DNA of 64,000 nt from Ottowia beijingensis (lineage in GTDB: Bacteria; Pseudomonadota; Gammaproteobacteria; Burkholderiales; Burkholderiaceae_C), in contig NZ_JACCKX010000001.1 of the NCBI RefSeq assembly GCF_013423955.1, forward strand, positions 1 through 64,000, in the 5' to 3' direction. The notes below the pieces were generated by a model that saw only the letters and a program-made list of their open reading frames with translations, searched no databases and had not been told where the DNA came from. A program made the translations under genes and the position numbers. This document shows positions 1 to 20,832 of the stretch, piece by piece. Every line of letters starts with the position of its first letter. Position 1 is the first letter of the stretch.

Positions 1-28
1 GTTGTACTTCGTTCAGTTACGTATTGCT
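1..28 (+). other. Oxford Nanopore ligation adapter remnant (artefact)
   Basis: The first 28 bases contain GTACTTCGTTCAGTTACGTA followed by TTGCT, which I recognise as the top strand of the Oxford Nanopore ligation adapter with its first two bases altered. It abuts the control-strand end at base 29 with no gap. This is library chemistry left untrimmed at a contig end, not genomic DNA. Confidence 0.93.
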
Positions 29-260
29 GCTTACGGTTCACTACTCACGACGATGTTTTTTTGGTACCTTTTTTTCACCGGAAAGGACCCGTAAAGTGAT
101 AATGATTATCATCTACATATCACAACGTGCGTGGAGGCCATCAAACCACGTCAAATAATCAATTATGACGCAGGTATCGTATTAATTGATCTGCATCAAC
201 TTAACGTAAAAACAACTTCCAGACAATACAAATCAGCGACACTGAATACGGGGCAACCTC

Positions 261-454
261 ATGTCAACGAAGAACAGAACCCGCAGAACAACAACCCGCA
301 ACATCCGCTTTCCTAACCAAATGATTGAACAAATTAACATCGCTCTTGAGCAAAAAGGGTCCGGAATTTCTCAGCCTGGGTCATTGAAGCCTGCCGTCGG
401 AGACTAACGTCAGAAAAGAGAGCATATACATCAATTAAAAGTGATGAAGAATGA
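261..454 (+). CDS. lambda small Arc/CopG-like ORF (control DNA)
   Basis: A 64-residue lambda right-end protein, beginning MSTKNRTRRTTTRNIRFPNQ, with a ribbon-helix-helix-like N-terminus. One base appears missing near 361-366 (GGGAA read as GGAA), so the frame breaks after about 34 residues and resumes to a stop at 452-454. It belongs to the control DNA and says nothing about the host. Confidence 0.75.
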
Positions 455-602
455 ACATCCCGCGTTCTTCCCTCCGAACAGGACGATATTGTAAATTCAC
501 TTAATTACGAGGGCATTGCAGTAATTGAGTTGCAGTTTTACCACTTTCCTGACAGTGACAGACTGCGTGTTGGCTCTGTCACAGACTAAATAGTTTGAAT
601 GA

Positions 603-823
603 TTAGCAGTTATGGTGATCAGTCAACCACCAGAAATAATCCTTCATATTATTATCGTGCTTCACCAACGCTGCCTCAATTGCTCTGAATGCTTCCAGAG
701 ACACCTTATGTTCTATACATGCAATTACAACATCAGGGTAACTCATAGAAATGGTGCTATTAAGCATATTTTTACACGAATCAGATCCACGGAGGGATCA
801 TCAGCAGATTGTTCTTTATTCAT
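603..823 (-). CDS. lambda small right-end ORF (control DNA)
   Basis: A lambda hypothetical protein of about 73 residues, starting [19 protein letters not shown]. The reading frame is broken by one missing base in a short A-run near 765-775 and ends at a TAA at 603-605. It is part of the control DNA. No function is assigned. Confidence 0.7.
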
Positions 824-1066
824 TTTGTCGCTCCATGCGCTTGCTCTTCATCTAGCGGTTAAAATATTACTTCAAATCTTTCTGTATGAAGATTTGAGCA
901 CGTTAACCTTACATACATCTGTCGGTTGTATTTCCCTCCAGAATGCCAGCAGGACCGCACTTTGTTACGCAACCAATACTATTAAGTGAAAACATTCCTA
1001 ATATTTGACATAAATCATCAACAAAACACAAGGAGGTCAGACCAGATTGAAACGATAAAAACGATA

Positions 1067-1518
1067 ATGCAAACTACGCGCCCTCGTATCACATGGAAGG
1101 TTTTACCAATGGCTCAGGTTGCCATTTTTAAAGAAATATTCGATCAAGTGCGAAAAGATTTAGACTGTGAATTGTTTTATTCTGAACTAAAACGTCACAA
1201 CGTCTCACATTATATTTACTATCTAGCCACAGATAATATTCACATCGTGTTAGAAAACGATAACACCGTGTTAATAAAAGGACTTAAAAGGTTGTAAATG
1301 TTAAATTCTCAAGAAACACGCATCTTATAGAAACGTCCTATGATAGGTTGAAATCAAGAGAAATCACATTTCAGCAATACAGGGAAAATCTTGCTAAAGC
1401 AGGAGTTTTCCGATGGGTTACAAATATCCATGAACATAAAAGATATTACTATACCTTTGATAATTCATTACTATTTACTGAGAGCATTCAGAACACTACA
1501 CAAATCTTTCCACGCTAA
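1067..1518 (+). CDS. DUF1398-like lambda protein (control DNA)
   Basis: Two frames, 1067-1297 and about 1300-1518, join into one protein of about 150 residues if one A is restored in the A-run near 1288. The first half contains [20 protein letters not shown] and the second ends [14 protein letters not shown] recognise this as the lambda protein related to E. coli prophage YbcV (DUF1398); its function is unknown. The break is a sequencing indel in control DNA. Confidence 0.75.
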
Positions 1519-1807
1519 ATCATAACGTCCGGTTTCTTCCGTGTCAGCACCGGGGCGTTGGCATAATGCAATACGTGTACGCGCTAAACCCTGTGTGCAT
1601 CGTTTTAATTATTCCCGGACACTCCCGCAGAGAAGTTCCCCGTCAGGGCTGTGGACATAGTTAATCCGGGAATACAATGACGATTCATCGCACCTGACAT
1701 ACATTAATAAATATTAACAATATGAAATTTCAACTCATTGTTTAGGGTTTGTTTAATTTTCTACACATACGATTCTGCGAACTTCAAAAAGCATCGGGAA
1801 TAACACC

Positions 1808-2101
1808 ATGAAAAAAATGCTACTCGCTACTGCGCTGGCCCTGCTTATTACAGGATGTGCTCAACAGACGTTTACTGTTCAAAACAAACCGGCAGCAGTA
1901 GCACCAAAGGAAACCATCACCCATCATTTCTTCGTTTCTGGAATTGGGCAGAAGAAAACTGTCGATGCAGCCAAAATTTGTGGCGGCGCAGAAAATGTTG
2001 TTAAAACAGAAACCCAGCAAACATTCGTAAATGGATTGCTCGGTTTTATTACTTTAGGCATTTATACTCCGCTGGAAGCGCGTGTGTATTGCTCACAATA
2101 A
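1808..2101 (+). CDS. bor: Bor lipoprotein of lambda (control DNA)
   Basis: A complete 97-residue frame identical, as far as I recall, to lambda Bor. The signal peptide MKKMLLATALALLITGC ends in a lipobox cysteine at residue 17. In lambda lysogens Bor is an outer-membrane lipoprotein linked to serum resistance. It lies divergent to Rz and R, as in lambda. It is here only because the control strand covers the lambda right end, so no virulence trait should be inferred for the sequenced organism. Confidence 0.95.
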   Translation: MKKMLLATALALLITGCAQQTFTVQNKPAAVAPKETITHHFFVSGIGQKKTVDAAKICGGAENVVKTETQQTFVNGLLGFITLGIYTPLEARVYCSQ

Positions 2102-2132
2102 TTGCATGAGTTGCCCATCGATATGGGCAACT

Positions 2133-2591
2133 CTATCTGCACTGCTCATTAATATACTTCTGGGTTCCTTCCAGTTGTTTTGCATAGTGATCAGCCTCTC
2201 TCTGAGGGTGAAATAATCCCGTTCAGCGGTGTCTGCCAGTCGGGGAGGCTGCATTATCCACGCCGGAGGCGGTGGTGGCTTCACGCACTGACTGACAGAC
2301 TGCTTTGATGTGCAACCGACGACGACCAGCGGCAACATCATCACGCAGAGCATCATTTTCAGCTTTAGCATCAGCTAACTCCTTCGTGTATTTTGCATCG
2401 AGCGCAGCAACATCACGCTGACGCATCTGCATGTCAGTAATTGCCGCGTTCGCCAGCTTCAGTTCTCTGGCATTTTTGTCGCGCTGGGCTTTGTAGGTAA
2501 TGGCGTTATCACGGTAATGATTAACAGCCCATGACAGGCAGACGATGATGCAGATAACCAGAGCGGAGATAATCGCGGTGACTCTGCTCAT
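2133..2591 (-). CDS. Rz: Rz i-spanin of lambda (control DNA)
   Basis: Lambda Rz, the inner-membrane half of the spanin complex that fuses membranes during lysis. It begins [20 protein letters not shown], a signal anchor, followed by the periplasmic coiled coil. The span is 459 bases where lambda has 462. The frame breaks near 2235 (AASP then out of frame) and again near 2172, where an A-run is shortened. Expected C-terminus KYINEQCR is readable to the stop at 2133. Confidence 0.9.
2191..2371 (-). CDS. Rz1: Rz1 o-spanin lipoprotein of lambda (control DNA)
   Basis: Embedded in another frame of Rz, as in lambda. It begins [20 protein letters not shown] with a lipobox cysteine at residue 20, then the proline-rich stretch KPPPPPAW. 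It is the outer-membrane half of the Rz/Rz1 spanin. The last third is thrown out of frame by the same indel that breaks Rz near 2235; the proper stop is at 2191-2193. Confidence 0.88.
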
Positions 2592-3063
2592 ACATCAATC
2601 TCTCTGACCGTTCCGCCCGCTTCTTTGAATTTTGCAATCAGGCTGTCAGCCTTATGCTCGAACTGACCATAACCAGCGCCCGGCAGTGAAGCCCAGATAT
2701 TGCTGCAACGGTCGATTGCCTGACGGATATCACCACGATCAATCATAGGTAAAGCGCCACGCTCCTTAATCTGCTGCAATGCCACAGCGTCCTGACTTTT
2801 CGGAGAGAAGTCTTTCAGGCCAAGCTGCTTGCGGTAGGCATCCCACCAACGGGAAAGAAGCTGGTAGCGTCCGGCGCCTGTTGATTTGAGTTTTGGGTTT
2901 AGCGTGACAAGTTTGCGAGGGTGATCGGGTAATCAGTAAATAGCTCTCCGCCTACAATGACGTCATAACCATGATTTCTGGTTTTCTGACGTCCGTTATC
3001 AGTTCCCTCCGACCACGCCAGCATATCGAGGAACGCCTTACGTTGATTATTGATTTCTACCAT
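2588..3063 (-). CDS. R: R endolysin of lambda (control DNA)
   Basis: Lambda R lytic transglycosylase, which cuts murein during lysis. The start codon is at 3061-3063 and the stop overlaps the Rz start. The C-terminal 65 residues ([20 protein letters not shown] and onwards) are in one frame. The N-terminal third is in other frames because of an indel near 2925. The span is 476 bases against 477 in lambda. Confidence 0.9.
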
Positions 3064-3367
3064 CTTCTACTCCGGCTTTTTAGCAGCGAAGCGTTTGATA
3101 AGCGAACCAATCGAGTCAGTACCGATGTAGCCGATAAACACGCTCGTTATATAAGCGAGATTGCTACTTAGTCCGGCGAAGTCGAGAAGGTCACGAATGA
3201 ACTAGGCGATAATGGCGCACATCGTTGCGTCGATTACTGTTTTGTAAACGCACCGCCATTATATCTGCCGCGAAGGTACGCCATTGCAAACGCAAGGATT
3301 GCCCCGATGCCTTGTTCCTTTGCCGCGAGAATGGCGGCCAACAGGTCATGTTTTCTGGCATCTTCAT
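3047..3367 (-). CDS. S: S holin of lambda with Sam7 amber codon (control DNA)
   Basis: Lambda holin gene; the start ATG is at 3365-3367 and the stop overlaps the R start region. Codon 56, normally TGG for tryptophan, is TAG at 3202-3204 in the context MCAIIA-stop-FIRDLL. This is the Sam7 allele of the laboratory strain lambda cI857 Sam7, the usual source of commercial lambda DNA. Additional short deletions disturb the frame. Confidence 0.92.
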
Positions 3368-3637
3368 GTCTTACCCCCAATAAGGGGATTTGCTCTATTT
3401 AATTAGGAATAAGGTCGATTACTGATAGAACAAATCCAGGCTACTGTGTTTAGTAATCAGATTTGTTCGTGACCGATATGCACGGGCAAAACGGCAGGAG
3501 GTTGTTAGCGCAAAAAAAAATTCCAAAAAAATTCCAAAAAAAAAGCGACTAACAAACACAATCTGATGGCAAGGGCGGACGATTCTGCACCCATGAAAGC
3601 CCGCCGGGTGGCGGCCTGGGGCTCGTGCTGATGATGG

Positions 3638-4179
3638 TCAGGCTGCTGCGGCCTGTTCCCGCACACTGACCAGCACATGCTCATGCGCGCGCCGCCACAC
3701 CTGTTCTGGCCCATGTCGGGATGCTCAGCGGAAATGGCGTCGGCGCTGGCCCCCAGCCGATCGAGCATCGGCTGGTTGCTGGCGTATGCGATGCTGCCGC
3801 CTTCCGGTGTTGCCGCCCATGCCTTCAACTGATCGAGGCTCGATTTCCACGATCTAGCTGTGTTCTTCGCGGCAGCCTGCGCCGCGCGGATGTTGGCCCG
3901 CTCCAGATACTCGTTCGCATCGACGGCCAGGGCATCGATCGCGTCCAAGAGCCCTGCGCGCATGTTGGCGCCCATGGTCATTACGCCGGGCGATTCCACC
4001 AGCAGCACCTGCGCAATCGCGCTGATGCCACGCAGGCGTGAGGCCATGGAGGCGGCTTCGTGACTGTGCAAGTCCAGGTCGTTGTCGAGCCCACAGTCAT
4101 GGTTCAGCTTCCATTCGCTGTGTAGGTCGAGGACGCCGACTTTGGCTTTGGTTGCTGCGGTTACAGTCTCGGTAGCCAT
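3638..4179 (-). CDS. Hypothetical protein of the integrative element
   Basis: I do not recognise this roughly 180-residue protein. It begins MATETVTAATKAKVGVLDLH and has an alanine-rich helical middle (IRAAQAAAKNTARSWKSSLD). One indel near 3718 breaks the frame; restoring it gives a C-terminus ending VREQAAAA and a TGA at 3638-3640. Read literally, the frame instead runs across the artefact junction at 3570 into lambda control DNA and stops at 3505, so an automatic call would give a chimeric protein. It lies 45 bases downstream of a small leftward gene and is probably in the same leftward transcript. Confidence 0.6.
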
Positions 4180-4224
4180 TGATTCACCTCATTCGTGATT
4201 GATGGTCAGGGGCCAGTTGGTGCG

Positions 4225-4467
4225 TCACCACCTACTGGCCCCGCCTTTTGCCCCGCTCGATCCGCCGCGGGGCTTGGCGGTTTCCTCATCCGGCAGCCTG
4301 GCCCGGTCGATGCGCTCGCGCACCCATGGCCCGCCGCCCAACTTGTCCAACTTCGTGCGCTGCTTCTCGCTCATGCGCACCGACACAATCACCGTCGGCG
4401 ACGACGCATCCAGTGGCGCGCGACCGCCGCGCCTGGTTTTCTTGTCTGTGTCGCTCGGTTCCGTCAT
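4225..4467 (-). CDS. Putative ribbon-helix-helix protein
   Basis: About 80 residues, starting MTEPSDTDKKTRRGGR; an upstream in-frame ATG at 4503 is possible, but the shorter start leaves the 4474-4521 inverted repeat upstream as an operator. The core SPTVIVSVRMSEKQRTKLDK reads as a beta strand followed by helices, the pattern of ribbon-helix-helix repressors. The tail is glycine- and serine-rich. It is divergent from the toxin-antitoxin pair and may bind the inverted repeat that separates them. This function is inferred from pattern only. Confidence 0.5.
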   Translation of the reverse strand: MTEPSDTDKKTRRGGRAPLDASSPTVIVSVRMSEKQRTKLDKLGGGPWVRERIDRARLPDEETAKPRGGSSGAKGGASRW

Positions 4468-4473
4468 GCTTAT

Positions 4474-4521
4474 ATCGTATGACGATTGATGATCTAGTGT
4501 CAAGCTATATCGTCATACGAT
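4474..4521. promoter_or_regulatory. 13-bp inverted repeat, likely operator
   Basis: ATCGTATGACGAT at 4474-4486 and its exact reverse complement ATCGTCATACGAT at 4509-4521 flank a 22-base spacer. The pair lies between the divergent ribbon-helix-helix gene and the toxin gene, where a repressor operator would be expected. No clear -35/-10 pair was assigned. Confidence 0.6.
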
Positions 4522-4549
4522 AGATTCAGAAGGACGCTATTGCGTATCT

Positions 4550-4565
4550 GTATTCGATCGAATAC
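4550..4565. promoter_or_regulatory. Perfect 16-bp palindrome upstream of toxin
   Basis: GTATTCGATCGAATAC is fully self-complementary and ends 10 bases before the toxin start at 4576. Type II toxin-antitoxin operons are normally repressed by the antitoxin binding such palindromes, so this is the likely autoregulatory operator. Confidence 0.65.
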
Positions 4566-4575
4566 AATACAGCCT

Positions 4576-4875
4576 ATGAATTCCATCCGTCTGTTGCCCG
4601 AGCTCAGCCGTTGCCTCAGCGGATTGAGGGATCACACGGTGCGCATACGCTTGGCGCGCCGGCTGGAGAAGGCGCAGGCTGGCAACCTCGGCGACGTGGC
4701 CCCGGTGGGTGATGGCGTGATGGAAATGCGCGAGCACTTCGGCGCTGGCTGGCGCATGTACTACGTCCAGCGCGGCGCCGTGGTGATCGTGATGCTGGGC
4801 GGTGGCGACAAGTCCACCCAGCGCAAGGACATTGAAACGGCCAAGGAGCGGGCCGGAACGCTCGAAGGAGAGTGA
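4576..4875 (+). CDS. RelE/HigB-type toxin (Gp49-like family)
   Basis: A toxin of about 99 residues. The family signature is clear: GLRDHTVRIRLARRLEKAQA, then GNLGDVAPVGDGVMEMREHF, the GWRMYYVQR strand and MLGGGDKSTQRKDI. Members are ribosome-dependent mRNA interferases encoded before their antitoxin, the HigBA gene order. I chose the ATG at 4576 (MNSIRLLPEL), which fits the usual 95-105 residue length; an upstream ATG at 4540 would put the palindrome inside the gene. Its TGA overlaps the antitoxin start as TGATG, implying translational coupling. Confidence 0.88.
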   Translation: MNSIRLLPELSRCLSGLRDHTVRIRLARRLEKAQAGNLGDVAPVGDGVMEMREHFGAGWRMYYVQRGAVVIVMLGGGDKSTQRKDIETAKERAGTLEGE

Positions 4876-5177
4876 TGATGGTCAAGGTAGCCGACCTACC
4901 CGAATTCGACATGGCGCAGCATCTGGACAGTGATGAGGCCATTGCTGATTACCTGACGCTGGTGATCGAGGAAAACGACTCGGCCGCACTGGCGCAGGCG
5001 CTCGGAACGATCGCCCGGGCGCGTGGCATGAGCGAGATCGCCAGGGCGTCTGGCCTAGGTCGTGAGGCGCTGTACAAGGCACTGCGGGCCGACAGTCAGC
5101 CGCGCTTCGACACCATTTCGCGCGTGTGCCAGGCGCTCGGGGTCAAGCTGGTGGCTCAGCCTGTCGCAGCGCACTGA
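4875..5177 (+). CDS. HigA-like antitoxin, helix-turn-helix
   Basis: A 100-residue antidote protein of the addiction-module family (COG3636-like). The N-terminus (DMAQHLDSDEAIADYLTLVI) binds the toxin in relatives. The C-terminal half is a helix-turn-helix: MSEIARASGLGREALYKALR followed by FDTISRVCQALGVKL. Possible starts are GTG 4872, ATG 4875 and ATG 4878; I prefer 4875 because it overlaps the toxin stop. It should neutralise the toxin and repress the operon through the upstream palindrome. The pair probably stabilises the integrative element. Confidence 0.85.
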   Translation: MMVKVADLPEFDMAQHLDSDEAIADYLTLVIEENDSAALAQALGTIARARGMSEIARASGLGREALYKALRADSQPRFDTISRVCQALGVKLVAQPVAAH

Positions 5178-5264
5178 GGCGGCGCTTTCAGTGGAAACAC
5201 CCGGGCGGCTGGTTCGCCTGGCCATCCGAGGTTTGTCCAAAGTGTGACCAAAGCGCCAGCGCAG

Positions 5265-5522
5265 CTATTCGGCAGCCTCCCGCATCCTCGCCCGCATCGT
5301 CCGCACCACGCGCGAGAAGCTTTCCCGGTTCATCCGCCGCACCGTGCCATTGCGCATCCGGTACACCAGCTCGCGGCTCTCCATGTCGAAAGGCTGAAGC
5401 CCTCGACACCCAGGGGCAGCGCGTTGCGCACGAGGAAGAACCAGGCGCGCTTCGGTGGATCGTCGGTTCAGGTACTGACTCAGCCAGACGGCGACAGGCG
5501 AGTAATTGGTGCGGGTGGTCAT
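5265..5522 (-). CDS. Hypothetical protein
   Basis: An 85-residue basic protein starting MTTRTNYSPVAVWLSQYLNR, chosen because AAGGAG lies 8 bases before this ATG. The C-terminus is arginine-rich (NGTVRRMNRESFSRVVRTMR), suggesting nucleic-acid contact, but no domain is recognised. It is the last gene of the leftward replication cluster and converges on the toxin-antitoxin pair. Confidence 0.55.
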   Translation of the reverse strand: MTTRTNYSPVAVWLSQYLNRRSTEARLVLPRAQRAAPGCRGLQPFDMESRELVYRMRNGTVRRMNRESFSRVVRTMRARMREAAE

Positions 5523-5536
5523 GGTGGTGTGCTCCT

Positions 5537-5880
5537 TCAATGCTGGGCTGGTTCCAGCTCCTCAAGTTCCCATTGGCCGATCGTGCTGTCCAGTTGGTAG
5601 ATGAGCGCGTGGGTTTCGCAGTAGGCGTCGTCAAGATGGCTGTCCAGCCGGTCAATGGCACGCCGCACGAACTGGGTGATCTGCACCGCGCGCGGGTGTG
5701 GTGAGCCGTCAGGCGTGCGGCGGTGCGCAACTCGTCCAGGCGCTCCAGGATCGCCTCAGAACCGACTTTGGCGATGCGAAGCTGGGCAGCCCCATCCGTC
5801 AGCTTCAAAACCGCCTGACGCGCCAGTACGACGGCCTGGTGAGCGCGCTCGCATCCCAGGGGATCGGTGCAGCTACTCAT
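5537..5880 (-). CDS. Hypothetical protein, frame broken
   Basis: About 114 residues, starting MSSCTDPLGCERAHQAVVLA. An indel near 5697 breaks the frame; in the adjacent frame the protein continues QITQFVRRAIDRLDSHLDDA to a TGA at 5537. It is largely helical with many alanines and acidic residues, and no domain is recognised. Its start overlaps the stop of the upstream winged-helix gene by 4 bp. The indel is most likely a sequence error, since the downstream frame is well formed. Confidence 0.55.
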
Positions 5881-6218
5881 GGGCGCTTCCTCGCGGCTTT
5901 CTGGCCTTCCGGGGTGAGCCGGTACCTCATGTTGCGGGTGTTCCGCGGATCGCTGCGGCTGGCCTCGATGTGGCCGCGCGCGAGCAGCAGCGTCAGCGCC
6001 CAGTGGAAACTCGACCGGGTGGGCACGCCCACGGCCAACTGGCGGTAGGCCCACCACTCAGCCGGCGCCGTCGCCATCTTGCGCAGGACGTGATGCGTGG
6101 CCGATCCGACCTGCACGCTGCCGGGCGGCTTTGGGTTGAAGGCGGCCCTTCTCGCTTCCTGCGCCGTCGTCGCGCCGCCCGTCTGGGCAAGCTGGCGCAG
6201 CATCCAATCCATGCTCAT
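5877..6218 (-). CDS. Winged-helix-like protein of the replication cluster
   Basis: 113 residues from MSMDWMLRQLAQTGGATTAQ. The middle (SATHHVLRKMATAPAEWWAY, then RSSFHWALTLLLARGHIEAS) and the ending RYRLTPEGQKAARKRP resemble a winged-helix DNA-binding fold, with the typical 'LTPEG' wing seen in MarR/PadR-like proteins. It could regulate or assist replication of the element. Start chosen at 6218 because the longer frame to 6353 overlaps the SSB-like gene. Confidence 0.6.
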   Translation of the reverse strand: MSMDWMLRQLAQTGGATTAQEARRAAFNPKPPGSVQVGSATHHVLRKMATAPAEWWAYRQLAVGVPTRSSFHWALTLLLARGHIEASRSDPRNTRNMRYRLTPEGQKAARKRP

Positions 6219-6228
6219 GGGGTGCCTT

Positions 6229-6624
6229 TCAGAAAGGCATGACGTCGTCGGGCAGGTACCCGGCCGCTGCGGGTGCGCGCTGCGGTGGCGTGTCCTTGTC
6301 CTTGGCGACTGCCTGGCGCTTTCTGGTGACGTGGTACGGCGTGAGCACCGCATGCGCCTGCAGGTTCAGGCTGGGGCGCGCGTTGCCGGTGTTGTCCGTC
6401 CAGGTGCCTACGGTGAGCGCGCCTGAAACCGCAGTGCTGTCGCCATCGCCAAGCGCCATGAGCGCATCGCAGGCGGTGCGGCTGAACGCGATCACGTTGA
6501 TGAACTGGCCTTCGCCCTGGCCATCGGCCGCGCGAATCTTGGCGGTGACGTAGGGCTGACCGGTCTTGCCGGTGCGCTGCTGGACCTGGCCGAACAGCTT
6601 GCCGGCGACGAGTGCATCGATCAT
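6229..6624 (-). CDS. Single-stranded DNA-binding protein-like (OB fold)
   Basis: 131 residues from MIDALVAGKLFGQVQQRTGK. The N-terminal two thirds follow the SSB OB-fold layout: GKLFGQVQQRTGKTGQPYVT, then INVIAFSRTACDALMALGDG and GALTVGTWTDNTGNARPSLN. The tail ends GYLPDDVMPF, an acidic, hydrophobic tip like the SSB C-terminus that recruits partner proteins. It overlaps the nuclease gene by 4 bp and lies downstream of the primase-helicase, supporting a role in replicating the element. Confidence 0.75.
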   Translation of the reverse strand: MIDALVAGKLFGQVQQRTGKTGQPYVTAKIRAADGQGEGQFINVIAFSRTACDALMALGDGDSTAVSGALTVGTWTDNTGNARPSLNLQAHAVLTPYHVTRKRQAVAKDKDTPPQRAPAAAGYLPDDVMPF

Positions 6625-7036
6625 GGGGTGGTTTCCTGGTTGGTGGTGGTCAGGGTTTCGCGGAACACGGCGGCCCAGGCTTTGGGCGAGCCTTCGGCCG
6701 TCCATTCGTAGCCGCGCCACATGGCAGCGGTCTGCATGGTCAGGTTGACGGACAGCGGCCACACGGCGCGCCAGGCGTCACGGTCCTGGCGGAACAGCAG
6801 CGGGATGCCGCCGTGCCGTTCGGCCTGGGCGGCGGCCTGTGCCCACCAGCCGGCGATCAGGGCGCGGCGCGGGCATGGCGCTTCACCTCCACGCACCAGC
6901 CGGGCAGGCCTTCCAGGTCGGAATCCCCATCGTGCTGGCGCACGCGGCGGCGCACGTCGCAGCCGGTCAGTTCGGCCAGCAGGGCGGCAATCTCGCGCTC
7001 GCCCACCTTGCCTTTGGTGCGGCTCATGGCGCCCAT
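6621..7036 (-). CDS. Holliday-junction-resolvase-like (PD-(D/E)XK) nuclease, frame broken
   Basis: About 138 residues. The N-terminus, MSRTKGKVGEREIAALLAEL, carries the conserved GxxxE helix of small endonuclease-like resolvases. It is followed by the catalytic pattern DSDLEGLPGWCVEVKRHA, that is D...E-V-K. An indel near 6872 shifts the frame; the second half (LIAGWWAQAAAQAERHGGIP, then LLFRQDRDAWRAVWPLS) completes the fold. Starts at 7036 or 7027 are both possible. The stop overlaps the SSB-like start. Confidence 0.72.
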
Positions 7037-7220
7037 GGATCGATCTCCTGTGCGGGGTAGGCGCGCTCGAAGTGCTCCAGCAGGGCAGCGTGGTGCTCGG
7101 GCGGACTTCGGCGAGCTGGCGGCGCATCTCCTGGCGAGCGGCTGGCGAGTCGCCCCAGTGATCGCAAGCACGCATGGCGGCGGCTTGAAGTCGGCGCAAA
7201 ACCGACCGGGGCGCACTCAT
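7024..7220 (-). CDS. Small hypothetical protein, frame broken
   Basis: About 65 residues. It starts MSAPRSVLRRLQAAAMRACD, reads to RRQLAEVRP, then shifts frame near 7097 and ends EHFERAYPAQEIDPWAP. No domain is recognised. It is sandwiched between the primase-helicase and the nuclease gene with short overlaps on both sides, so it belongs to the same translationally coupled replication cluster. Confidence 0.5.
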
Positions 7221-9378
7221 TGCCCACCCCCTCTGCGCCTTCCTCTGCGCGCGCTTCCCCGTACCCCCTGCGAAGTCAGCGCAGTCAGCGCAGACACTTC
7301 GCCGGGTGCGTTGACTTCGAAGTCAGCGCAAGTCAGCGCAGTCAGCGCAATGGGCTGCGGCTCGGCAAACTCGCGGCCTTGCGGTGTAGCCCATACCTCT
7401 TTCTGGTGCCGGTTTTCGGCGCTGCGCATCACGCGCACCAGTTGCCCGGCCCGCTCGGCACGGCGCAGCAAGTCGAACACGTCGGCGGGCTTGATACCCT
7501 CGGATAGCCCGGCTCGTTGCAAAGCAGCTTCGCGGCATGGGTGCGGCTTGTCGTTGCCGTGGTGACGTGCTCGCCACGCTCGGTGAATTCGGCAATCAGC
7601 CTCAGCAGGGCTTTGGTGTTCACGCGGTCGCTGATACCCTGCACCACTGGCGAAAGCGTCTGCACGGCCTGCGGTAAGCCCCTGGCCATTCCAGCGCCAG
7701 CGGCGCGCGCATCTTGCCGTGGTTGCTCTTCTGGTGCTCCAGCGTCAACGAGCCATCCTCGGCGCGGCTCATGAAAATCCGGCTGCGGGATGAGTTGTGC
7801 CACGCCGTGGAACCGCTGTAACCCTCGCCGCCTTCGGCCTTGCGTGCCCGGCTGGTGTTCTTGTCGACGTGCGCCAGCAGCAGCACGGCGGCATCGGCTT
7901 CGCGGGCAATCGCGGCCAGCGAGCGCATGAAAGCCCTCACCTGACGGCGCTGGATTTCGTCGCCGCCGTAGGCGTCCGATGCGTTGTCGATGGTGACCAG
8001 CCCGGCGCCGGTTCTGCGCACCAGCTCGCGCAGCTCGGCATAGACCGGCGTCACGTCTCCAGGCCCGCGGCCTTCACTGGCGAACAACTCCGGGTTTTCG
8101 GTGCCGTCAACGATGTGCAGTGCGCCCAGCTCGGCAGGGGAGATGCCCCAGCACTGGCAGATGTGCGCCAGCCGGTGGCGCACGATGCCGGCCCCATCCT
8201 CAAGGCTGGCAAACACCACGGGCACGGCGTCGGTGCCAGCCCCGAAAAGCTCCCGTCCTGTCGACACGGCAGCAGCCAGCATCAGGGCAACCGTCGATTT
8301 GCCGGTGCCCCCGTGCGCACCTAGCAGCGTAACCACGTTCCGCGGGCAGTAGCCATCCCACACGAAACGCGGCGGCGGGCTGGGGTTGCTGTGCACGTCG
8401 AGCACGCTGACGGGCGTCAGCAGCGGCGCGGGCGGCTCAGGAACTGCGGCAGCTTCCAGCAGCGCGGCCAGCGCTTCCAAGCCGTCACGCTGCGCCAGGT
8501 CGCCCACGTCCGAATTGGCGGGCCAGCCCTCGGGCAGCGCGGCCACGGCGGCGCCCAGCTCGCGCGCAATGGTTTCGGCGTCCGGTTCCTTGCCCACGTC
8601 GGGCACCAGCACCAGCCGGGCGGATGCATCACGCTGGCGCAACTGCGCGGCCACGCGGGACACGTTGCCCCAGCCGAAACACACCACGGCGCGATGCCCG
8701 GTCGCCTGCCAGCAAGCCCATGCAGCCCCGATACCCTCGCACACGTACAGCGGCCCGTCGCCAGTGCCGACGATGTGCGATGCGCCGGTCATCGGCGCCC
8801 CGGCCAGGTTCATCTTGGGGCCATCGGGCGGAATCAGCTGCAGGCTTTGCAGCTCGCCGGCCGGGCCATGGGCGGGGACCACCAGCGCGCCGGCCATGCT
8901 GTGCCCACCGATGCGCAGCGGGTCACCCTGGGGCAACACGCGCAGCAGATCGAGCGGCACGCCCTGGGCGGCCTTGCGCACGATGTACGCATGCTGTGCT
9001 GTAGCTGGCTCGCAGCGCGCCCACACATCGGCAGGGTGCTACCTGGGCGCGGGGCTTTCGTGGGCGCCTGGGGCTTGCTGCGGGGCTTGGCTGGGCTTGG
9101 CGCGTGGGCTTGGCGTCATCGCGCCAGCCGTGTTCAGTGGCCATGCGGTACAGCGTGCCGGCGCCTACGCCCTTGCCGGGCTTGAAGCTGCGCCAGGTGT
9201 CGCGCGCGGCGCGGCTGTCGTAGCTGGCGGCCTGGGCGCTCCAACTGTCGAAGGCGTCGAAGTCCAGTCCAGCCGCCTGGGCGGCCATGCCGGCGCGCAC
9301 CCATTCATCGCGCGGCAGGTCGGGCGGGATGTGTCCCAGCGCCTCCCGGGCGCGATTGAGTTCGTGGGCTGCGCTCAC
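7217..9378 (-). CDS. Primase/Toprim/RepA-type helicase, multidomain, frame broken
   Basis: One protein of about 720 residues read through at least three indels (near 9040, 7690 and 7505). The N-terminus (MSAAHELNRAREALGHIPPD, then DAFDSWSAQAASYDSRAARD) is a PriCT-2 primase C-terminal-type domain. Next comes a Toprim-like region (DGPLYVCEGIGAAWACWQAT, LVLVPDVGKEPDAE). Then follows a RepA/AAA ATPase with Walker A LLGAHGGTGKSTVALML and Walker B LVTIDNASD. The C-terminus, PADVFDLLRRAERAGQLVRV, resembles a winged helix. Such proteins initiate and unwind replication of satellites and plasmids. Its start overlaps the upstream gene and its stop overlaps the next, so the cluster is coupled. Confidence 0.78.
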
Positions 9379-9821
9379 CTCGCCGCCTCCGCAATGGAGC
9401 GCGCTTTCGTTTCAATGGCGCGCCTCGCGCCCCGCATCGCCTTCTGGCTTTTGGCGCACTTCGGGCAAACCAGATAGACAAGGCTCGGATGGGCGGGGTT
9501 GTGCGGCTTGTAGCTGCACACCAGCCAGCCGGGGGCGGGAGCGCGCATCTGGAAACAGCCCCAGCAGCGGGCCGGACGGTCATCGGCATGCAGCGCGGCG
9601 CGGACGCGATTGATCTCGGTGATGTCGTTCATCGGGCCCCCGATCTGCCGCAGGAACGCGCGCGCCTGCTCAATACTGTCGAACTCGCGGGCAAAGACCC
9701 AGCGGCTGACCAGGATGGTGATGAGGCCGTCGTCATCGGCGCACCAGGTCATCGCGTGGCCGGTCAGGGCGAATTCGGCTTGAAGGGTGGCCAGGGCCTT
9801 GCGCGTAGCCGTGTCCACCAT
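9375..9821 (-). CDS. Zinc-ribbon-like hypothetical protein
   Basis: 149 residues from MVDTATRKALATLQAEFALT; an upstream GTG at 9866 is possible. The N-terminal half resembles a small alpha/beta domain (WCADDDGLITILVSRWVFAR). The second half begins MNDITEINRVRAALHADDRP and holds two cysteine pairs, CWGC and CPKC, spaced as in a zinc ribbon. The internal ATG suggests it could be two genes, or a fusion. The stop overlaps the primase-helicase start. Function unknown. Confidence 0.55.
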   Translation of the reverse strand: MVDTATRKALATLQAEFALTGHAMTWCADDDGLITILVSRWVFAREFDSIEQARAFLRQIGGPMNDITEINRVRAALHADDRPARCWGCFQMRAPAPGWLVCSYKPHNPAHPSLVYLVCPKCAKSQKAMRGARRAIETKARSIAEAAR

Positions 9822-9906
9822 GGCAGACTGGCGGGGCTCGATTGAGCATTGCTGCTTGTTCACCACGCCCGGCCTGCCCGCCGGGCGTTTTCATGGGGCG
9901 TCCATG

Positions 9907-10209
9907 TCAGGACGCCTTGGCAAGCTGATCGAGCTTGCGCAGCACGTCGCGCGCCGCGTCCACGGTGTAGATGGAGCGCTTGCCGAGGCGCTTGGGCTTC
10001 GGAATCACGCCATCCTTGATGAAGCCGTAGAAGGCCGTACGCCCGAACGGCGTGAAGCCTGTGCGGCCTCGCTTGTCGCCGCGCGGCCGAAGGCTGAACA
10101 TTTGATCTACGGCGACAAAGCCCTCTGTCGGCATCACAGCGGCGATCGGCTGGATCGGCTGCTGCGTGGGCTGTGGCCCTGCCTCGGGTGCGGTGGTCTT
10201 GGTTTCCAT
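9907..10209 (-). CDS. AlpA-like helix-turn-helix regulator/excisionase
   Basis: About 100 residues from METKTTAPEAGPQPTQQPIQ; an upstream ATG at 10239 exists. After a flexible proline/glutamine-rich N-terminus comes a MerR/AlpA-type winged-helix core: RTAFYGFIKDGVIPKPKRLG, then SIYTVDAARDVLRKLDQL. AlpA-family proteins activate or direct excision of satellite elements and are usually encoded near the integrase end, as here once the two later insertions are removed. It is the first gene of the leftward cluster, with a short inverted repeat 48 bases upstream. Confidence 0.72.
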   Translation of the reverse strand: METKTTAPEAGPQPTQQPIQPIAAVMPTEGFVAVDQMFSLRPRGDKRGRTGFTPFGRTAFYGFIKDGVIPKPKRLGKRSIYTVDAARDVLRKLDQLAKAS

Positions 10210-10256
10210 TGGGCGCTGTCCTAGTTCGGATGCGTTCAATGGTCACTCACAGCAAT

Positions 10257-10280
10257 TTGGCAAAGCGGTTAAATTGCCAA
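10257..10280. promoter_or_regulatory. Inverted repeat upstream of AlpA-like gene
   Basis: TTGGCAA at 10257-10263 and TTGCCAA at 10274-10280 form a perfect 7-bp inverted repeat with a 10-base spacer, in the noncoding 10210-10394 stretch before the leftward cluster. It may be an operator or excisionase site. This is weak evidence, from symmetry and position only. Confidence 0.35.
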
Positions 10281-10394
10281 TTCATGGCGCGATGCTTGCG
10301 ATCGAGACAGCGCTAAGTCGTTGATTTCCAATGACCTATACGAGTCAATACGATGCTGTTCGGACGGTGACAATGTGGAACTCGGAGACCTGGC

Positions 10395-10443
10395 TTATGT
10401 CCGCGCGTAGCGCCGCGTGAGTCCAGCCAAACGCGCTGCCTCC
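10395..10443 (-). pseudogene. 3' remnant of gene split by composite transposon
   Basis: When 10444-22772 and one copy of the TCC duplication are removed, the truncated frame at 22773-23350 continues without a break into this stretch. It reads KDVREAARLAGLTRRYART and ends at TAA (10395-10397). The added residues look like a helix-turn-helix recognition segment. This restoration is the best evidence for where the 12.3-kb unit inserted. Confidence 0.7.
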
Positions 10444-10507
10444 TGAGGTTGCCCCTGAAAACTGGAGTTCTTAACCCTTGTTGAAAATACCGACAAGGAG
10501 TTCAGAG

Positions 10508-10838
10508 ATGAGTGACAAGCAGGTGCGTGCGCAGTACACGCGAGAGTTCAAGCAGGAGGCTGTTCGGCAGGTCCGCTCGGGTCAGGCGATTGCGGTGGTG
10601 GCCAAGGTACTGGGCATTCCCAAAGCGAGCCTGGGCAACTGGGTGCGGCTGTCAGCCAAGGGAGAATTGGACGGTGCGGGCGGTGGTGACAAGAGAATCC
10701 AAGTCTCGCCCGAGCAGATGGAGATAGCCCGGTTGCGTGCAGAGAATGCTCGCCTTCGCATGGAGCGCGACATCGCAAAAAGCCGCGGCGTACTTCGCGC
10801 AGGACACGCTGCGAGGTACGCCTGGATTCACCAAATGA
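10508..10838 (+). CDS. IS3-family OrfA
   Basis: The helix-turn-helix half of an IS3 transposase, about 110 residues. It starts MSDKQVRAQYTREFKQEAVR and continues with AIAVVAKVLGIPKASLGNWV and a leucine-zipper region (EIARLRAENARLRMERDIAK). In the A-run at 10777-10781 the frame shifts; with one A added it ends KAAAYFAQDTLRGTPGFTK at a TGA (10836-10838). That A-run could be the usual programmed -1 slip site for making OrfAB or just a homopolymer error. The stop overlaps the OrfB ATG. Confidence 0.82.
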
Positions 10839-11703
10839 GAAAGCTGTACCCGGTGAATGTGTCCTGCGGGGTGCTGGAGGTCAGCGCCAGCGGGTACTTC
10901 AACCGGCTGCGCCGGCGTGATTCTGGCCACGGTGGACCTGCCCGGCGTCACAGCGACGAAGCCCTGCTGGCGTACATGCGCGCCATCCACGCCGAGGTGA
11001 AGGGGAATACGGTTGGCCACGCATGCACAAGGAACTGCTGGCCCGGGGCATCCGGGTGGGCAAGGACCGGGTGCGCAAGCTCATGCAGCAGCACGGCATC
11101 AGGGCCAAGACCAAACGCAAGTTCGTGGTGACTACCGACAGCCGCCACAGCCTGCCGGTGGCGCCCGACTTGGTACAGCGGCGCTTCAACCCCGAGGCGC
11201 CCAACCAGCTGTGCAGTGGCGACATCACCTACATCCAAACCGACGAGGGCTGGCTGTACCTGGCTGCGGTCATCGACCTGTTCAACCGTCAGGTGGTGGG
11301 TTGGAGCCTGCAGCCGCACATGCAGGCCAGCCTGGTCAAGGACGCGCTGGCCATGGCGTGGTGGCGCCGCAGGCCACCTCCTGGACTGATATTCCACAGC
11401 GACCGGGGCAGCCAGTATTGCAGCCATGAGTTCCAGGATGCCTTGAAGGACTGGGGCATGCGTTCATCGATGAGCAGAAAGGGCAACTGCTGGGACAACG
11501 CACCGACCGAGAGCTTCTGGGGCCGGCTGAAAACAGCCAGCGTACATGGGTGCAAATTCGCTACCCGTGAGCAGGCCAGGCAGGCGGTGATGGACTGGAT
11601 GGCCTTCTACAATCACCGCAGGCTGCATTCGTCGCTGGGCTACCTCAGCCCGATGCAGTACGAGCAGCGCTGGTACGAGGCACAGCGTAAAAAGGCCGCG
11701 TGA
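10835..11703 (+). CDS. IS3-family OrfB transposase (DDE), frame broken
   Basis: Integrase-core transposase of about 289 residues, starting MRKLYPVNVSCGVLEVSASG, with an indel near 11012. The rve core is clear: SGDITYIQTDEGWLYLAAVI, GLIFHSDRGSQY, and the final DDE glutamate in NAPTESFWGRLKTASVHGCK. The conserved tryptophan of the motif W-S-G-D-I-T is cysteine here (TGC at 11212-11214); the second copy at 21903-22772 keeps tryptophan. Either this copy is slightly damaged or one base was miscalled. Confidence 0.85.
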
Positions 11704-11849
11704 ACCGTGGGTTAAGAGCTACACGAAACAGGGGCAAGGTCACAGTAAGACTAACCCATCAAGAATTAAAACAGGCGGGTCATACTGCGCCTGGATTGAC
11801 TGCAGTCCGGCAAGGTTCAGAGCCTGCGCCAAACGGGAGAATGCATGCC

Positions 11850-12799
11850 ATGAAAAATTCGGTTAACACACTGCGCAGCGTCAATATGAACCTGCTGCCG
11901 ATATTGGCTGAGTTGCTACGGACAGCTAATGTAACCAGAGCTGCGGGCAGGCTGCACCTCACTCAATCCACGGTCAGTGGATCACTTCGTCAGCTGCGCG
12001 AGATATTCGGCGACGAGCTACTGATGCAGCATGGCCGGGAAATGGTTCTTACTGAAAGAGCCAAGCGACTGGTACCAGAGGTAGAGCGCATCATGGAGTT
12101 GACTGGCCGTCTGTTCCAAACGGAGCAATTCGATCCTTACACGGCTGCATCGCGCTTTCGCATTGCAACAGCAGACTATGTTTCGGCACTCGTGACGTCG
12201 AGGCTAGGGCTGTCCTGCAGACGCTAGCCCCGAACATTACCCTTACCCTCACGCCTACGCCGGGCACATCCGCCAAAGAACTGCAACTCGGATCACTTGA
12301 CCTGATTATCTGCCCCAATCTTCCATCCATTGGCAAGCCTGCGGCATAAGCCGCAGCGATCAGGATTTTCAGTATGAAATTTCATGCAAGACGACTTGGT
12401 GGCAATCCAGTGGCGCGCGCATTCAGGCAGTGCAAAGGCAATGAGTCAGCTCGAGTACCTCGAACGTCCACACGCCGTCTATTGTCGTACAGACGGACAC
12501 GAGACCATTGAGCAGGAAACTCTGAACCGCCTAGGCTTGCGACAACGTACTCAGTTCCAGGTTCCCTATTTCACGTTGCTCCTCAGTTGGTTGTCAATAC
12601 AGACATCATCAGCTTGGTGCCCCGATCGCTCGCGCTCCACTACGTGAAAATCTTCGATATTGACATCTTCAAACCGCCCTTCGAGTTGCCGACCATGGAT
12701 CTGGTCATGATCTGGGCAAGAAGCCGAGAAGCCTTTCCAGACCTGAATTGGTTACGAAACCTGGTGCGCCAGGCTTCATCTGAGGCTGAGTGCGCCTGA
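11850..12799 (+). CDS. LysR-type transcriptional regulator, frame broken
   Basis: About 316 residues through three indels (near 12205, 12340 and 12585). The N-terminal helix-turn-helix is typical: LAELLRTANVTRAAGRLHLT, then QSTVSGSLRQLREIFGDELL. The effector domain is readable in pieces (APNITLTLTPTPGTSAKELQ; QDDLVAIQWRAHSGSAKAMS; DIISLVPRSLALHYVKIFDI). The length fits NahR/NodD-type LysR proteins, which activate aromatic catabolic operons with a pathway intermediate as inducer. It lies just inside the left IS3 copy and, before IS30 and IS407 jumped in, directly upstream of nahF. Unusually it points the same way as the operon. Confidence 0.8.
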
Positions 12800-12805
12800 A
12801 TACAG

Positions 12806-13914
12806 GGCGGTCTCAAATCTGAAGTGCAACACCGCTGGTTGATATTCAATGAATGGTAGCGGAGTTCCTCTCGGCGATAGCCGCCATGAATCGCTGTAAG
12901 GCCTGATAGGGAGAATCCCATCCGAGCGTCTGCCGAGGACGGTTGTTCATCAGATCGGCCATGGAATCCAGCGCCTCCTGGTCATGCACGCTCAGGTCTG
13001 TGCCCTTGGGCATGAACTGGCGCAGCAGCCCATTGGTATTCTCGCAACTGCCCTTTTGCCAAGGGCTGTGCGGATCACAAAAGTACACGCGCATACCAAG
13101 GGCTTCGGCGAGCTCCTTATGCCGGGCCATCTCCTTGCCCTGGTCATAGGTGAGCGTCTGGCGCATCGGGTCTGCAATCTGGCGCAGCTTGTTGGTGAAC
13201 GCAGCCAGTGCACTCTCAGCCGATGCGTCAGGCATCTTGCACAGCAGCACCAGGCGCGTTGAGCGCTCGACCAGCACACCCACCGCCGACTTGTTGCCAG
13301 CGCCCTTGATCAAATCCCCTCCCAATGCCCCGGCATCACGCGATCATTGACCTCGGGTGGGCGAACATGGATAGAGACCATGTCTGGAATCTGACCGCGC
13401 CGATGAGAGCTGCTGAACGCGGGCGGCGTGTACTCTTGCCCTGGCGCAGCAGTGCGATGAGCTGGCGGCGCAACTCGCCGCGTGGGTATGCATAGATGGC
13501 GGTGTAGATGCTCTCGTGCGAGGCATGCTTGCTTGGCTCTTGGGGATACATGCGCTGGAGTGTGTGTGTAATCTGCTGGGGCGACCACAGCCAGCACAGC
13601 ATGGTGGTGACAAGCATCCACAACGCCCCGGAGCTGTGCAGTTTGGGGCATGGCCTGACCTGAATGCGACGCTGCTGGCACAGGCGCTGCGCAGGCGCGC
13701 TGGCGTAACTGCCATTGCAGGCGTTGCGCCGCAACTCACGGCTGATGGTGCTTGGGCTGCGGCCTTGAAGGCGGGCTATGGCCCTGATGCTCCAGCCCTG
13801 CTGGCGCAGCGATGCCAACGTCACCCTATCTTCTGGCTGCAAGTGTTCGTATCTCTTTCTCATCTGCATACATTACCCTCGGTGAGGGTGTTGCACTTCA
13901 GATTTGAGACCGCC
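12806..13914 (-). mobile_element. IS30-family insertion sequence
   Basis: 1109 bp with near-perfect terminal repeats: GGCGGTCTCAAATCTGAAGT on the left and its complement at 13895-13914 on the right, the match extending over 28 bases. A 3-bp target duplication CAG flanks it (12803-12805 and 13915-13917). One transposase gene lies inside. Confidence 0.92.
12846..13869 (-). CDS. IS30-family transposase, frame broken
   Basis: About 341 residues in two frames joined near 13335. The N-terminal helix-turn-helix (EDRVTLASLRQQGWSIRAIA, then LQGRSPSTISRELRRNACNG) is the IS30 signature. The catalytic DDE domain follows: MPGHWEGDLIKGAGNKSAVG, QTLTYDQGKEMARHKELAEA and CDPHSPWQKGSCENTNGLLR. The E in the last motif completes the triad. 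The break is one indel in a G/C-rich run and the element may be active. Confidence 0.88.
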
Positions 13915-13986
13915 CAGCCTGACCTGCCCCTCCCTGCCGTACCAGTCTGAGGTTAGCGAGGTCCGTCAACCAGGAGAATGACGGAC

Positions 13987-14253
13987 ATGAAGAAGAGCAG
14001 GTTTACGGAGGAGCAGATCATCGGGTTCATCCGCCAGGCAGAGGCGGGGATGCCGGTGAAGGAGTTGTGCCGCAAGGGCGGCTTCAGCGACGCCACGTTC
14101 TACAAGTGGCGCGCCAAGTACGGTGGCATGGATGTGCCCGACGCCAAGCGGCTGCGTGAGCTCGAATCCGAGAATGCCAAGCTGAAGAAGCTGCTGGCGG
14201 AGGCCCACCTGGACATCCACGCGCTCAAGGGCGTCTTCGGGGTAAAGCGCTAG
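13987..14253 (+). CDS. IS407-group OrfA
   Basis: 88 residues, starting MKKSRFTEEQIIGFIRQAEA (an ATG at 13978 is also in frame). The helix-turn-helix GMPVKELCRKGGFSDATFYK and the leucine-rich tail RLRELESENAKLKKLLAEAH are typical of IS3-family OrfA proteins, which bind the termini and join OrfB through the coiled coil. Confidence 0.9.
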   Translation: MKKSRFTEEQIIGFIRQAEAGMPVKELCRKGGFSDATFYKWRAKYGGMDVPDAKRLRELESENAKLKKLLAEAHLDIHALKGVFGVKR

Positions 14254-14285
14254 CCCCACAGGCGAAGCGCACGGCAATCGCCGCC

Positions 14286-15119
14286 ATGGTGGAGCAGTTC
14301 CACCTGTCTGAGCGCCGTGCCTGCCGCCTCGTGGGGCTCTCCCGTGACAGCTACCGCCATCCGCCCCAGGAAACCGAGATGAACCAGCCTGAGCGCCAAG
14401 ATCATCGAGATCGCCCATGTGCGCCGGCGCTTCGGCTATCGGCGCATCCACGACCTGCTGCGTCCGGAATTCGCCGGCGTCAACCACAAGCGGGTGCTGC
14501 GGCTGTACCAGCAGGCGAACCTGTCGGTGCGCAAGCGCCGCAAGGCCAAGCGTCCGGCCTCGGAGCGCATGCCGTTGCAGCTGGCCCGCGCCGTCAACGA
14601 GGTCTGGAGCATGGACTTCGTGAGCGACAGCCTGGCCAGCGGCCGCCGCATCAAGTTCCTTACCGTGGCAGATGACTTCAGCCATGAGTGCGTGCAGATC
14701 GGCGCCGACTTTGGGATCTCGGGCGAGTACGTTACACGGCTGCTGGACGAGACCGCGCGGTTCCGCGGCTACCCGCGTGCCGTGCGCACGGACAACGGCC
14801 CGGAGCTCACCAGCAGGGCCTTCATGGCCTGGGCTCAAGGTCACGGCATCCGGCACATCCTGATTGAGCCCGGGCGGCCGATGCAGAACGGCTACATCGA
14901 GAGCTTCAACGGCAAGTTCCGCGACGAATGCCTGAACGAGCACTGGTTCCAAACGCTGCCTCAAGCCCGAGCTGTCGTTGCAGCCTGGCGCCAGGATTTC
15001 AACGAGGTGCGCCCCCACAGCAGCCTTGGTCGCATTCCCCCGCACGCTTTGCGGAGCAGCATCGCCAGCAAGCTGTCGATGCTGCCGAAGACCAGTTACC
15101 CAGCAGCCAAATCGATTAA
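14286..15119 (+). CDS. IS407-group OrfB transposase, frame broken
   Basis: About 278 residues through indels near 14385 and 15040. It begins MVEQFHLSERRACRLVGLSR. The core holds NEVWSMDFVSDSLASGRRIK (first Asp), RAVRTDNGPELTSRAFMAWA (second Asp) and NGYIESFNGKFRDECLNEHW (Glu). The proper C-terminus, in the last frame, reads RFAEQHRQQAVDAAEDQLPS and stops at 15119. DDE catalytic residues are all present. Confidence 0.88.
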
Positions 15120-15174
15120 CCTTTCAACCCCGGACTTCCTACGTTCGATTGGTACGGAGGAAGGGGGCAGGTCA

Positions 15175-15459
15175 AGCCAAATGGTTGCCAAAGCGGCGAC
15201 AAGGGCCCCGGGGCCGCATAAAAGCAGGCCCATCTGCAGGGAAAATGGCGTCCTCTACGCCATCTGAAAACTGCGGCCTTGTAGCACTCGCGAATTCGAG
15301 TTGTTCAGGACATCCCTAACTGATGACGCTCGGGGTTCCAAACTACTATCGGGATGACCGATACGTGGCATCCGAATTCTCCGTTTTACTGGCATCGGTA
15401 GTACTCCTAGAGTTGGCAGTCTTCTTTCGCACTATGACCAAACTCAGGAGAAACCAAGA
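15175..15459 (+). promoter_or_regulatory. Leader region of the nah-type operon
   Basis: 285 noncoding bases between the IS407-group element and nahF. It is less GC-rich than its surroundings near 15340-15440 and should contain the operon promoter and any LysR binding site, but I could not assign -35/-10 boxes or a clear T-N11-A operator. CAGGAGAAACC 8-18 bases before the nahF ATG is a good ribosome binding site. Confidence 0.4.
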
Positions 15460-16909: not shown

Positions 16910-16929
16910 ATCGAAACGCACTGAAATTC

Positions 16930-17923
16930 ATGACAAATTTGAAGAAAACACGGTTGACTGCCGACGACATCAGCGGCGCATGGACCATCATGCCAACACC
17001 TGCAACTCCAGACGCTTCCGACTGGCGCGTTCAACACACGGTCGATCTGGACGAAACGGCCCGCATCGTCGAGGCACTAATCAGTGCGGGCGTGGACGGC
17101 ATCATCAGCAATGGCACGTTTGGTGAATGTGCCACCCTGACATGGGACGAAAAACGCGACTTTATCGCTACTGTAGTCGAGACTGCACGTGGCCGCGTGC
17201 CGTTCTTCTGCGGCACAACAGCCTTACATACCCGCGAGGTCATCCGCCAGACTCGGGAAGCCATGGACATTGGCGCAAGCGGAACCATGTTGGGCGTTCC
17301 GATGTGGTGCAAGATGGAAGTTCCAACTGCAGTACAGTTCTATCGCGACGTCTCAGAGGCAGTACCCGAGGCAGCCATCGCCATTTATGCGAACCCGGAG
17401 GCTTTCAAGTTCGATTTTCCGCGGCCGTTCTGGGCGCAGGTGTCGAACATTCCTCAAGTAGTTGCCGCCAAGTACCTTGGAATTGGCATGCTCGATCTCG
17501 ACCTGAAACTGGCGCCGAGCATCCGCTTCCTTCCGCACGAGGACGATTACTACGCAGCTGCGCGGATCGATCCTGAGCGCATGACCGCCTTCTGGTCTAG
17601 TGGCCCATGTGTGGCCCCGCTACGGCGATGCGCCTGCGTGACGTCGTGGCCGAAGCAAAACGAACCGGGAATTGGACCGACGCCAAAGGGATCTCTGATG
17701 CCATGCGGCAAGCAGATTTGTCGCTCTTTCCTCGCGGAGATTTTTCGGAGTTCTCCAAGTACAACATTGGCTTGAGAAGGCCCGCATGGACGCTGCAGGC
17801 TGGCTCAAGGCCGGCCCATGCCGTCCGCCGTATCACATAGTCCCAGAAGAATACTTGGCTGGCGCTCGGAAATCCGGTGAAGCCTGGGCCGCGCTGCATG
17901 CGCGCTACGCAAAGCAGGCCTGA
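16930..17923 (+). CDS. nahE: trans-o-Hydroxybenzylidenepyruvate hydratase-aldolase, frame broken
   Basis: A class I aldolase of the DapA superfamily, about 331 residues after indels near 17605 and 17775. It begins [20 protein letters not shown]. The hydratase-aldolase marker [12 protein letters not shown], the substrate motif [20 protein letters not shown] and the Schiff-base lysine in [11 protein letters not shown] fit NahE and differ from plain dihydrodipicolinate synthases. It splits hydroxybenzylidenepyruvate into salicylaldehyde and pyruvate, feeding NahF. The C-terminus ends [20 protein letters not shown]. It lies 20 bases after nahF and 18 before nahD, in one operon. Confidence 0.85.
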
Positions 17924-17941
17924 AACGGCGCGGTGAGCGCC

Positions 17942-19568: not shown

Positions 19569-19585
19569 GAGGAGACTTCAGCAGA

Positions 19586-20725: not shown

Positions 20726-20746
20726 CCCTTGCTTTAACGGCACTCG

Positions 20747-20788: not shown

Positions 20789-20832
20789 ATGGGTCTTGCT
20801 GCGCAAGCTACTGATTCCCGAGTGGAGTCGTC

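Follow-up and report, generated by a model that had tools for sequence, protein, structure and literature searches.

The window analysed here comprises the first 64,000 bases of contig C1 (NZ_JACCKX010000001.1; 4,008,472 bp) of Ottowia beijingensis, one of four contigs that together make up a genome of 4.29 Mb. At its left end lie, in order, a nanopore adapter, a block of lambda genes that includes the lysis genes and bor, flanked on both sides by engineered spacers and primer tails, a single extra A, and chromosomal DNA that is present again at the other end of the contig (Table 1).

Table 1. Features at the start of contig C1, in window coordinates
Feature	Position	Strand	Basis or remark
Oxford Nanopore ligation adapter, start sequence	1..28	+	Bases 3-28 exact; reference sequence in PMC7730629
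Complete lambda-derived DNA control strand (DCS), reverse relative to lambda	29..3570	-	Alignment to lambda plus tails
Non-lambda primer tail of control strand, 27 bases	29..55		An ONT-tagged primer in PMC4374364 begins with this 27-mer
Engineered poly-T / GGTACC / poly-T spacer	56..74		Not in NC_001416
Lambda 48488-45042: S, R, Rz/Rz1, bor, two right-end reading frames	75..3511	-	NC_001416 alignment and annotation
Sam7 allele: amber stop at codon 56 of the holin gene, S	3203..3203	-	Marker of laboratory lambda
Artefactual fusion of a chromosomal frame with the control-strand tail, 224 aa	3505..4179	-	Frame ends differently in the other copy
Engineered poly-A / TTCC spacers	3512..3544		Non-lambda
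Second non-lambda primer tail, 26 bases, outer border of control strand	3545..3570		An ONT-tagged primer in PMC4374364 begins with its reverse complement
Single extra A at junction, likely dA tail of control strand	3571..3571		T in the other chromosomal copy
Genuine chromosome; first copy of the 21.1-kb overlap between the contig ends (other copy C1:3987365-4008472)	3572..24654	+	

The adapter and the control strand

An earlier reading of the sequence by itself had identified bases 1-28 as the nanopore ligation adapter, and the comparison bears this out: 26 of the 28 bases agree with the start adapter of the ligation kit as printed in PMC7730629, with both mismatches falling within the first two bases. 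When up to three mismatches are allowed the adapter matches the window only at 1-28 and is matched in none of 100 shuffles, and at the same tolerance its 24-base core has one site across the 4.29-Mb genome, at C1:5-28.

The remainder, to position 3570, had been described as the full lambda control amplicon. The complete amplicon is present, and it ends at the proposed border on the 20-mer named for it, but segments 29-74 and 3512-3570 are vendor tails and not lambda. Alignment of 1-3570 to NC_001416, suggested as a check in the same reading, matches 75-3511 to the reverse strand of lambda 48488-45042 with 3432 of 3448 columns identical, and the differences amount to four substitutions, one insertion and ten deletion events. 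One of the substitutions is Sam7, the amber mutation in codon 56 of S (PMC10865782), an allele carried by 16 of the 17 sequences examined, NC_001416 being the sole one without it; the pattern among these sequences points to a common laboratory source. The poly-T/GGTACC/poly-T spacer pattern is found in 11 of the 17 (the window counted) and is absent from NC_001416, and other public copies of the control strand show the two tails and their spacers arranged likewise; the right end of NC_001416 lacks them. According to PMC12862388 the DNA control strand is an amplicon, 3.6 kb long, from the 3' end of lambda, and ONT-tagged primers in a MinION paper of 2015 (PMC4374364) begin with the two primer tails. 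Identity of the control strand was judged here against other public copies, in place of the vendor's own sequence file. When the contigs were searched with window 1-3570, the control strand was found once in the genome. We note that its sequence is about 0.5% off lambda, which is better than expected of a single older-chemistry read; other control-strand reads aligned to this stretch have probably improved the consensus.

The junction and the overlap of the contig ends

The control strand is followed by one A and then, from 3572, by chromosome shared with the other copy, and no adapter letters were found between 3570 and 3572. High-GC bacterial DNA does begin here, as had been claimed, with GC content rising from 47% (3001-3500) to 61% (3501-4000), but the claimed start at 3571 is the extra A rather than the first shared base. 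The base that follows the control-strand border is visible in 11 of the 15 other records examined and is an A in ten of these, with the beginning of the end adapter after it in nine records and other sequence in one (NZ_CP142893.1); in the exception, NZ_CP145514.1, the border runs straight into the record's own other end. CP127026.1 has the border twice with an A after both, one of them with a single letter left. This recurrence makes it likely that the A at 3571 is a dA tail added in end preparation, and therefore that ligation in the tube took place. The chance of one extra A is one in four, and contig tips are error-prone.

Relatives leave the junction unsettled because their matches are short: a plasmid search with 3571-9000 returned two short matches, and among 60 genomes searched with 3571-6000 (own genome counted) 18 had any match, all of them short except that of the genome itself. 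The junction is settled instead by the contig's own far end, which takes the place of the reads across the junction that the earlier reading had called for. Window 3569-24654 aligns to C1 3987362-4008472 with 99.56% identity and in direct orientation, starting at the junction and stopping at the final base of C1, and upstream of the junction the second copy is flanked by other, chromosome-like sequence, free of adapter and control strand. Direct overlap of both ends is the mark of a circular contig that was left uncircularised, and one turn of the circle, from window 3572 to C1 3987365, measures 3,983,793 bases. Given a 21.1-kb repeat that reaches the last base of C1, and clean chromosome upstream of it, C1 very likely represents a circular chromosome of about 3.984 Mb that failed to be closed because one of its ends was a chimera.

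The two chromosomal copies differ by 66 alignment events. Of these, 49 are gaps, which concentrate at each copy's own tip: below 9500 the start copy has 13 and the end copy 0, and above 22000 the counts are 0 and 8 respectively, a clustering that would be expected of thinly covered contig tips. GAGC/GCTC occurs at 12 of 56 merged difference places between the chromosomal copies, compared with 7.0% of 20,000 random positions, an excess that could hint at native base modification; in the control strand it occurs at 0 of 13 difference places against a background of 4.7%, 13 places being too few to mean much.

The earlier reading expected the gene list to be wrong in this region, and the segment does add lambda lysis genes and bor and creates a false fused gene. 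S, R, Rz and bor, present at the contig start, are absent from the clean copy of the locus, and the 224-aa fused frame matched no Pfam family at E 0.01. The sequence of 3572-24654 stands twice in the assembly, with about 21 kb double-counted, and an IS3-like region (rve integrase core) is counted four times, two of these copies likely being real. The overlap has the larger effect on the gene list, and could not have been revealed from the window alone.

How the join arose

We conclude, with a probability of about 0.97, that window 1-3570 is a ligation adapter with a complete DCS, likely ligated to a sheared chromosome fragment in library preparation and assembled as the tip of C1. End preparation would have added a dA tail to the 3' end of the control strand, which would then have been joined end to end with a sheared chromosomal fragment in the ligation step. 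Sequencing of the chimeric molecule would have started at the adapter, crossed the control strand and gone on into genomic DNA. The resulting chimeric read, which we infer to be the cause, would have been neither trimmed nor split, and would have become the left tip of C1 in the assembly. The foreign DNA at this tip would have kept the circular chromosome linear, with its 21.1-kb redundant overlap. Chimeric reads made up at least 1.7% of reads with an old 2D ligation kit (PMC5600009), and one laboratory found DCS/RCS controls at about 1% of its sequences (PMC12862388). Besides the chance of a stray A and the close match to lambda noted above, two observations count against this account: the first two bases of the adapter are off the published sequence, and the chromosomal copies, with their 66 events, are not identical.

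The join could also have been made in software, if two strands followed each other closely through one pore and were called as a single read, the second adapter being lost. Chimeras of this in-silico kind are known in nanopore data alongside ligation chimeras (PMC5600009), and two IMG/VR loci have adapter-like sequence between the control strand and other DNA. Here no adapter letters stand at 3570-3572 and the extra A at 3571 fits a dA tail, and ligation of dA-tailed molecules is therefore favored over read concatenation, which we regard as rather unlikely. It is more improbable again, to the point of being a slim chance, that the redundant 21 kb are truly duplicated or form the terminal repeat of a linear chromosome, such that the second copy represents a different place; the 66 differences between the copies would agree with this, but the repeat runs in direct orientation from the junction to the last base of the contig, and 49 of the 66 are gaps at each copy's own tip, as thin coverage would give.

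A natural lambda-like prophage or remnant at this chromosomal place would account for S, R, Rz and bor, and the sequence-only reading had argued that the segment is an artefact instead. We agree: the adapter at the contig tip, the vendor tails on both sides (neither of them lambda), an amplicon present in full and the laboratory allele Sam7 all speak against a prophage, as does the second copy of the locus at the far end, which has none of these and no lambda stretch. No integrase, immunity, head or tail genes were found adjoining, lambda being confined to 75-3511 and followed by sequence common to the other contig end (the genome beyond the window was searched with window 1-3570 only), and the borders are an adapter and a vendor primer tail, not host attachment sites. 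A 16S comparison with plasmid-borne copies weakly indicates Burkholderiales rather than a lambda host. A prophage is thus exceedingly improbable, and we give still less credence to a deliberate insertion, in which a laboratory construct with lambda control DNA was cloned into the strain. Engineered spacers and a GGTACC site are features that such a construct might have, but the sequencing adapter directly abuts the outer border of the control strand, the same strand is found in records of unrelated organisms, and a clean second copy of the locus exists. The natural prophage, the cloned construct, the true 21-kb duplication and the linear chromosome with terminal repeats were rejected on this evidence.

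Window 1-3570 is thus confirmed as an artefact of a known kind that holds no new biology. Its biological interest is low, and its practical use is as a clear test case for data cleaning. If the segment is kept, lambda lysis genes and bor are credited to the bacterium, a false fused gene is retained, about 21 kb stays double and the circle remains linear. Screens for adapter only or for 'lambda' only may pass such contigs, since lambda is a natural phage; the vendor tails together with Sam7 provide a simple and specific test.

The control strand in public records and its known counterparts

Matches to the non-lambda tail (29-75) were found in 10 of 72,556 plasmid records and in one of 5,426 E. 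coli genomes, that one being also among the ten, and at that sensitivity no phage record matched. Records of the control strand deposited as plasmids include those from E. coli (CP077071.1, 'pECQ4552_IHU08', and NZ_CP145514.1), Klebsiella from the International Space Station (NZ_CP092122.1), Staphylococcus aureus (CP113245.1 and CP127026.1), Acinetobacter baumannii (NZ_CP142893.1), Xanthomonas (CP127227.1) and Synechocystis (CP101708.1), and a Cohnella genome contains the strand as contig_6. Exact scans of genome contigs gave 0 matches for one border and one, in Cohnella, for the other; these counts are lower bounds because exact patterns miss copies with calling errors.

In print the same strand has already been taken for a real plasmid or plasmid-like contig (PMC9302127, PMC11171008, PMC11298459). 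One paper presents it as a structural peculiarity in the genome of a fungus (PMC11457142), and another calls its copies contaminants from the DNA isolation workflow (PMC11370537). For PMC11171008, PMC11370537 and PMC11457142 the identity of the strand rests on those papers' own comparison with CP077071.1. In none of these papers do the passages on pECQ4552_IHU08 name the control strand or equate the two, and a literature search, mostly without subscription papers, returned nothing, by title or abstract, on assemblies contaminated with the control strand. It is highly probable that the promiscuous 3.6-kb 'plasmid' pECQ4552_IHU08, met in Gammaproteobacteria, Staphylococcus, a cyanobacterium, an Actinobacterium and a fungus, is one vendor reagent throughout, and that contig-tip cases form a second, less visible class that blocks chromosome circularisation.

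The Oxford Nanopore DCS, with its lambda right end of about 3.6 kb, vendor tails and spacers at both ends and shared Sam7 allele, is matched here in length (3,542 bases), lambda part, primer tails, spacers and Sam7. It differs in being fused to a chromosome instead of standing as a free contig, and in that several homopolymers are shorter than in lambda or the other copies. pECQ4552_IHU08 and its look-alikes contain this control strand too, and their ends carry the tails and adapter sequence, but CP077071.1 was deposited as a separate circular plasmid. In the IMG/VR contigs 3300049043_000188 and 3300049043_000091 the control strand is embedded in or attached to other DNA, as in the window; the adapter-like sequence between the two, which has no equivalent here, makes read concatenation the likely origin of those contigs. 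The geometry of our case is that of the 8,423-bp plasmid presented in the Barbell paper (PMC13293122), in which a barcode overhang extends beyond the self-overlap, except that the overhang there is a short barcode, and here it is an adapter with a whole control strand, placed on a chromosome.

The nanopore control strand in plasmid and viral records

Plasmid entries of several bacteria are the lambda-derived control strand of the Oxford Nanopore kit, whose non-lambda tail is present in 10 plasmid records (CP077071.1, NZ_CP092122.1 and eight more). The name of the first of these, pECQ4552_IHU08, an Escherichia coli entry, has passed between records and also into several papers, one of them about a fungus. 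The control strand is also found in two IMG/VR viral contigs from the same metagenome, 3300049043_000188 and 3300049043_000091, where it lies within or is joined to other DNA and has adapter-like sequence adjoining it. In one of the 10 plasmid records, NZ_CP142893.1, the gene order suggests that two control strands were joined in inverted order, and the end of the control strand is followed by sequence that resembles a native barcode and its flank.

Lambda isolates and lambda-length plasmids

Two GenBank entries labeled as lambda isolates, OR974321.1 and OR974322.1, give chicken cloacal swabs as their source; both likely originate from control-strand reads, because in each the poly-T of the control strand adjoins the lambda end and the Sam7 allele, the amber marker of laboratory lambda, is present; OR974322.1 has mixed sequence at the expected control-strand end. 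Of the three lambda-length plasmids listed in the table, NZ_CP104294.1 was the one examined, in a single stretch. There the lambda end is the natural one and Sam7 is present, and this record is therefore likely to be lambda control DNA.

Lambda-length plasmid records, and repeated elements of the window
Feature	Position or length	Description
NZ_CP104294.1	48.5 kb, lambda length	deposited as Stenotrophomonas plasmid
NZ_CP082339.1	48.5 kb, lambda length	deposited as Salmonella plasmid
NZ_CP068597.1	48.5 kb, lambda length	deposited as Paenibacillus plasmid
IS3-like region, copy 1	10873-11742	rve integrase core
IS3-like region, copy 2	21903-22772	rve integrase core

Comparison of the two chromosomal copies

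The two IS3-like copies in the window are 98% identical, and are seen four times in the Ottowia beijingensis contig (C1) because its two ends overlap. Comparison of the overlapping chromosomal copies (window 3571-24654 and C1:3987364-4008472) places 12 of 56 differences at GAGC/GCTC sites, an excess over the 7.0% of random positions at such sites. None of 13 differences in the control strand falls there (background 4.7%), a number of places too small to mean much. The excess between the chromosomal copies could reflect a modified motif of the native DNA.
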